Shown here piece after piece: positions 33,011 through 34,492 of a DNA stretch of 64,000 bases. A program made the translations under genes and the position numbers. Source of the DNA: Bacteroidales bacterium. Lineage in GTDB: Bacteria; Bacteroidota; Bacteroidia; Bacteroidales; GWA2-32-17. The notes below the pieces were generated by a model. That model was not told the DNA's origin, ran no database searches, and was given only the letters and a program-made list of their open reading frames with translations. The stretch lies in the NCBI GenBank assembly GCA_026416095.1, contig JAOAFV010000044.1, forward strand, positions 1-64,000, in the 5' to 3' direction. How positions within the stretch are numbered: the first letter of the stretch is position 1; each line of letters starts with the position of its first letter.

Positions 33011-33020
33011 TTCGTTTTTT

Positions 33021-33028
33021 CAAATATA
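33021..33028 (-). promoter_or_regulatory. Putative -7 promoter element (TATATTTG, minus strand) before murI
   Basis: CAAATATA on the plus strand reads TATATTTG on the minus strand, 10 bases before the murI start codon, so the leader would be very short. Confidence 0.45.
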
Positions 33029-34209
33029 CATAAAAAAATTGAACTTATTGAAAAAAAATGCTACATCTATTTTTATGTTACTAAAATTCTTAATTTCAAA
33101 CTTTAAATGATAAAATAAAATTTTAAAAATAAGGTTTTCAGTGTTAAATAAAGAAAGTTAACATCATTTCTATGGTGTAAGTTTTGAATAATAAGTTATC
33201 GGTTGGAATTTAAGCAATATTTTTCATAAGAATTTAGGTACATTAGCCAGTGCATATGTGAGGTTTGCTTATAAAAGTCCATTAAATAATGTGGAATTTC
33301 TATACCAACAGAGTTACCTATCGAAGATATAAGTGGGGGGGTGATGTAAGTGATAATAAAGCAATGGAACTATTAAGGAAGTTAAGCAGCAAAAGACTAA
33401 CACTAAGTAATTTCATAAAATAATTTGTAAACCAAGCTATAGGTTAATTATGTATATTGCACATTTGTTTACCTATTCAGCGAAAGTAGGCATAAATGAG
33501 GTTTGTAAATATATTTCACAAGTAAATTTGCTATACGTGATGTAGAGAACGCAAAAATTGTAGGTATATTGCAAGCTATTAAGCGAGTAGCATAAGAGGT
33601 GTAAAGAAGAAAATGAATTAGGAAGGAGAGCAGTAAAAGGTAAAAGATGGTAATAATGAACAAGGTTTTTTATTCATATGAGAATATAAAGCAATTATAG
33701 TAGAAATACATAATTCGATAAAGAAAGATAATAAGCTAATAGATAACTGTGAGCTTTGGGACAACATGTTTGAGTAAAGGTTGGAATTTTTTTAATATCG
33801 GTTACAAACTGTGTTTGGTAAGAAAATAAGGATAAAAAAGTTTGAGATGTTTTTATATCTTTATAAGTAACTAATGGGGAAAGAGGAGTAAGAATATTTA
33901 GAGCATATATTTTAGCAACCAGAGTGTTATAGTGAAGAAGTAAATAACAAGAAACAACATGATTTTGAGGCAATAGGAATTATTACAAATTGAAGGAATT
34001 TTGCGATATTTGTGACATTGTAAGACATACAAGAATCGAAACAAAATAAAACAGATGTTTGGTGTGTAGAAGAGCATATTTGAAGACGATAGAACATATG
34101 TGCAAAGTGAAGAAGCGGAAGAATACTAAGTTTTTATTTCTCATATGGTTTTACAATGGTATTATGAGATGTATAAGATTTTAAACGAAGAAGAATTAAT
34201 ATCGAAGGC
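33029..34209. other. Gene-poor stretch with decayed coding-like sequence
   Basis: No ORF in this 1.2 kb resembles a real gene. The plus strand from about 33360 to 34190 is purine- and G-richer than typical local intergenic DNA. It contains broken coding-like phrases separated by stops, for example DVENAKIVGILQAIKRVA at about 33539-33592 and EEVNNKKQHDFEAIGIITN near 33930-33990. This suggests one or more decayed plus-strand genes, but I cannot name a family. Minus-strand ORFs at 33469-33663 and 33695-33973 are low-complexity and look like chance. No inverted repeats or transposase motif were recognised. Confidence 0.4.
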
Positions 34210-34303
34210 ATTATAGACATATATTGCTTGATGTTAAACTTATATTCGCGGTTTCTGGAGGGGGGCTCGGTTGATTATAGACATATATTGCTTGATGTTA
34301 AAC
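34210..34303. CRISPR. Two-repeat CRISPR-like unit with one spacer, no cas genes
   Basis: A 30-base sequence beginning ATTATAGACATATATTGC and ending GATGTTAAAC occurs identically at 34210-34239 and 34274-34303. The 34 bases between (34240-34273) are unique and 19 of 34 are G or C, in sharp contrast with the AT-rich flanks. Repeat length 30, spacer length 34 and an AAAC end are usual for class 1 CRISPR arrays. Read on the minus strand the repeat starts GTTTAACATC. No cas gene is in the window and the surrounding 1.5 kb is decayed, so this would be an orphan or remnant array. A simple 30-base direct duplication is the alternative. Only two copies are seen. Confidence 0.5.
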
Positions 34304-34492
34304 AAGTAAGGATAAATTTGGAGTATGATACGATGCCAAGGTTACAAACGAAATTATTAATTTTCTGAAAAAGTTTTAACTAAAGTATTAACTTGTTGTA
34401 TACTTCTTAATTTTTTTGTGGAAGTATAATGTACAATTATAAGTTAAGAGATAACTATGCTATAAAGCAATAAAAGTAAAATATGTTTAAAA

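Follow-up and report, generated by a model that had tools for sequence, protein, structure and literature searches.

A CRISPR-shaped repeat pair in an IS1634-type transposase relic is most likely ordinary genome debris

A repeat pair in an intergenic desert

The window analyzed here, a 64-kb stretch of DNA that begins its contig, contains a 30-bp sequence (R) repeated directly and exactly around 34 bp of GC-rich sequence (S). The unit lies in an intergenic desert with a GC content of 27.7%, and the organism appears to be Bacteroidota-like, judging from T9SS sorting domains found in the window ORFs that were checked. The features of the locus are as follows.

33011 to 34490, no strand: intergenic "gene desert" with an Asp/Glu-racemase ORF on one side and a GSCFA ORF on the other; the transposase relic is shown for its 3′ part only
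33855 to 34420, forward strand: the 3′ half of a decayed IS1634-family (DDE) transposase pseudogene, carrying the 64-bp R+S addition
34210 to 34239, forward strand: R1, the first 30-bp repeat copy, homologous to sequence that IS1634-type relics carry once
34240 to 34273, forward strand: S, the 34-bp GC-rich filler or "spacer", a gap in every aligned paralog, source not found
34274 to 34303, forward strand: R2, the second 30-bp copy, identical to R1, running straight into the downstream relic

A preliminary description had reported an exact 30-base repeat around a unique 34-base GC-rich spacer, and this stands: both copies at 34210 to 34303 read ATTATAGACATATATTGCTTGATGTTAAAC, and the sequence between them, TTATATTCGCGGTTTCTGGAGGGGGGCTCGGTTG, has G or C at 19 of its 34 positions (56%) and includes one run of six G. 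Shuffled sequence is expected to give 0 such matches even with up to three mismatches allowed, and a chance origin of the pair is excluded. It is the sole exact repeat-gap-repeat in the 64-kb window (repeat ≥16 bp, gap 5 to 80 bp), and only 0.33% of the 34-mers in the window are as G+C-rich as S, which has a GC content of 0.56 versus 0.29 for the sampled genome. Runs of G6 or C6 are scarce in the window, with about five sites, and a G7 run lies at 33335 to 33341 in the same desert, ~0.9 kb upstream of the unit. Rfam and ARAGORN gave no match in the window.

The surrounding relic and its paralogs

The flanks had been described as decayed, which we confirm, and the cause is a degenerate IS1634-type transposase gene. 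When the desert DNA (33011 to 34490) was compared with its own genome and 40 relatives, its 3′ part matched eight other contigs of the same genome, mostly at 69 to 75% identity, and a laxer search gave further copies. About ten diverged relic copies, at 67 to 73% DNA identity, are found elsewhere in the genome. Reading frames broken by stops spell out a transposase C-terminus across the relic, and frame 33022 reads ...YRHILLDVKQVRIN... through R2. A stitched consensus of the copies matches positions 377 to 461 of the 483 in NF033559, the IS1634 transposase profile of NCBIfam, with E 6e-12; the score, 45 bits, is under the 100-bit full-length cut-off, as expected for a stitched fragment. DDE_Tnp_1 is a further, weak match, and an intact 520-aa homologue from another genome of the order aligns with the consensus through its C-terminus, at 33% identity over 76 aa. 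Copies containing stops occur in this genome and in one genome of the same family, and open copies occur in a few relatives from the order. From these comparisons, the sequence that hosts the unit is identified as an IS1634-type transposase relic. IS4-type and other transposases recovered in the first family search are separate elements and not the host relic. The IS1634-type family has expanded and then died in this genome. At least 10 decayed IS1634-type copies were seen in the one genome (L024 to L031, L083, L084, and L127), with no intact copy.

The relic copies that align across the unit, on contigs C53, C45, C61, C19, C60, and C8, contain one R-like segment each (that on C60 reads CTTCATAGACATATTGCCGAATGTTAAA) and no counterpart of S; these empty sites belong to paralogous relics within one genome, as opposed to the corresponding locus of a different strain. 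Because the paralogs have a single R and lack S, R began as transposase coding sequence (…IDILLDVK…; …DFIDILLDVKQVK…), with the 64-bp R+S unit gained by one copy only, that at 34210 to 34303. With no difference between R1 and R2 against a divergence of ~30% for the paralogs, the duplication is probably younger than most of the relic's decay. We also considered that S might be native relic sequence left by a tandem duplication that then lost its first half; S is ~20 nt too long for this and far too G+C-rich. It starts with TTATATTCGC, where nearby paralog sequence shows ATATTCAC.

A search of the genome for further copies of the repeat, as the preliminary description had proposed, found none beyond the pair at up to three mismatches; R is also absent from 98 relatives, its 26- to 28-bp core was not found in GTDB or IMG/VR contigs, and it differs from all three array repeats of the genome. 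That description had counted a dispersed occurrence of the repeat against an array, and this was largely borne out: related sequences are dispersed in the genome, single-copy, and spacerless. The proposed comparison of the spacer with phage and plasmid sequences likewise gave no match, and no source of S was found in IMG/VR (four sub-patterns), GTDB, or its own genome. One 18-mer match (L142) extends to only 23 of 34 positions overall, which is shuffle-like and at chance level.

CRISPR arrays and cas genes in the genome

The genome contains genuine CRISPR arrays of three kinds, as follows.

C31 (L004) and C10 (L085:11-520): type II-C locus (cas9 fragment, cas1, cas2), 47-bp repeats, 29- to 32-bp spacers
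C18 (L092:12840-13135), C49 (L127:9-300), and C56 (L132:10-416): arrays of the 37-bp repeat GTCGCAATCCTTGTTGTAATGGACATATCACTTCAAC, 35- to 38-bp spacers
C58:1-398 (L134:1-398): array of the 29-bp repeat GTTTTAGTTGCCAAATATGGGATTTAAAG, 36- to 37-bp spacers, running off the contig end

The 47-bp repeat of the type II-C locus is unusually long, and the locus is apparently divided between two contigs. The 37-bp arrays on C18, C49, and C56 adjoin housekeeping genes; the ORFs tested near them are housekeeping or other genes with no PADLOC match, and none is a cas gene. A genome of the same genus has a long array with a repeat similar to the 37-bp one (L162:163-2700). Cas genes fitting the 29-bp array on C58 were not found in the assembly. 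Since arrays often end contigs, the cas genes of the 37- and 29-bp systems may lie in assembly gaps.

The preliminary description had also placed no cas genes within 64 kb. This holds for the ten window ORFs that were checked, none of which is a cas gene, and the search extends to the whole genome for two families: a Cas1 profile has one match, in the type II-C locus with the 47-bp repeat on C31, and a Cas6 profile, which is insensitive (5 of 14 control genomes positive), has none. No class 1 cas1 was found in the genome.

A second two-repeat unit lies on C8 (L083:616-712), with a 32/33 repeat/spacer geometry and a repeat that resembles that of the 29-bp array (p < 2e-4), some 100 to 150 bp from another IS1634-type relic. 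Compared with the pair at 34210 to 34303, we consider it the better candidate for a CRISPR remnant or an ectopic unit.

Origin of the repeat pair

The explanation that we prefer, with a probability of roughly 0.6, is that break repair or template switching duplicated 30 bp of a dead transposase gene around a 34-bp filler. On this view, an IS1634-family insertion sequence landed at the locus and decayed; later, 30 bp of the dead gene were doubled where they stood, and staggered-break repair or polymerase template switching would have captured 34 bp of GC-rich, unrelated filler between the copies. Relics that align across the spot with one R-like segment and no S count in favor of a duplication, and they fit the unrelated duplication that the preliminary description had offered as one of its readings. 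Also in favor are the transposase C-terminus that the relics encode, the confinement of R to this pair, its difference from the array repeats, and the searches for a class 1 cas1, for Cas6, and for a source of S, which found none. Counting against it are the rarity of such events, a 30/34 size close to that of the 29/36-37 array, and the GC content of S (0.56 versus 0.29), which suggests an outside source for the filler, not a local template. In a survey of 2.17 Mb (1.12 Mb, or 46%, of this genome and 1.05 Mb from three same-genus genomes), nearly all other repeat-gap-repeats belonged to genuine arrays or to coding repeats, or lay at contig ends; this type of event is thus uncommon, which leaves room for off-target spacer integration. 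We conclude that the unit is most likely ordinary genome debris, and expect it to be without function.

Of the rivals, the one that survives best, and which we nonetheless regard as unlikely, is that Cas1-Cas2 put a 34-bp prespacer into a non-CRISPR site of the relic, giving a one-spacer "neo-CRISPR" in which gap repair doubled the 30 bp between two staggered attack points. About as unlikely is its more specific version, a natural single ectopic integration into the dead transposase gene by an adaptation complex of 29- to 30-bp geometry, either missing from the assembly or lost; the pair would then be a newborn CRISPR-like unit seen beside its empty-site paralogs. Off-target integration is reported under Cas1-Cas2 overexpression (Nivala et al. 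2018, as relayed in PMC11788318), and off-target sites are similar to leader-repeat junctions (PMC6895254). In line with such an event, an insert of foreign appearance is flanked by perfect duplicates, and the paralogs show an empty site that has neither. The 30/34 dimensions are near the resident 29/36-37 array and equal to none of the three (29/36-37, 47/29-32, and 37/35-38); however, the unit was chosen for its array-like look, so the size match is biased evidence, and the spacers of the 29-bp array are 36 to 37 bp long, not 34. The reverse complement of R starts with GTTTAA, much as the array repeats start with GTTTTA. R is weakly similar to the 29-bp repeat of the genome, with p 0.013 in one orientation and 0.044 in the other, values that would not hold up once corrected for the number of orientations (two) and repeats (two) tested. 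The type II-C locus, with its 47/29-32 unit, contains the sole Cas1 found, and no protospacer for S was found among phages, plasmids, IMG/VR, or GTDB. Compared with the integration of Nivala et al. (2018), in which, as far as PMC11788318 recounts it, a non-CRISPR sequence is likewise doubled once around a spacer-sized insert, 34210 to 34303 offers no matching integrase, protospacer, or geometry.

We think it improbable that a mobile element produced a 30-bp target-site duplication and was later deleted almost entirely, leaving a 34-bp scar. IS1634-family relics are plentiful in the genome, and IS1549 and IS1634 are reported to make long, variable direct repeats of 8 to 514 bp (PMC2266710). The IS family is the same, and it can produce direct duplications tens of bp long. 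In contrast to those repeats, the copies of R enclose no element, only 34 bp of unrelated sequence, and the G+C content of S far exceeds that of the relics. Within the 46% of the genome sampled, no sequence resembles S more closely than shuffled sequence does.

An assembly or read artefact, either a mis-joined repeat loop or a chimeric read, is very improbable. The genome is a 62-contig draft, and S, with its G6 run, has no second occurrence, but the unit lies inside a 79-kb contig where the relic continues coherently to either side, and assemblers do not typically create exact 30-bp duplications around 34 bp.

Least credible is the reading of the unit as what remains of a real class 1 CRISPR array. 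The lengths, the AAAC at one end of R, and orphan-looking arrays of other types in the genome could be cited for it. Against it stand the identity of R as transposase sequence, of which each aligned paralogous relic has one copy, the lack of a third repeat, and the absence of R elsewhere in the genome and in the collections searched. The same observations argue against the recent loss of a CRISPR-Cas locus and the remote array used in trans that had been suggested earlier: no further R exists in the genome, and R belongs to a decayed transposase gene. Provided that the aligned paralogs are homologous at this spot, both a class 1 remnant and a trans array are ruled out, and by sequence comparison the unit does not appear to be a CRISPR array.

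As a duplication in place, the unit is like the false one-spacer CRISPR-like elements described previously (e.g., PMC5294841), being a repeat-spacer-repeat that a finder could flag, lacking cas support and originating from another kind of repeat; it differs from them in that its origin is traceable to duplication within an IS1634-type relic for which paralogous empty sites are available. If the unit is ordinary, it illustrates that a CRISPR-shaped structure can arise through duplication in transposon debris, and paralogous relics would be usable as a control for one-spacer CRISPR calls. If ectopic integration were instead the true origin, the pair would be a natural example of new arrays being seeded outside existing ones.
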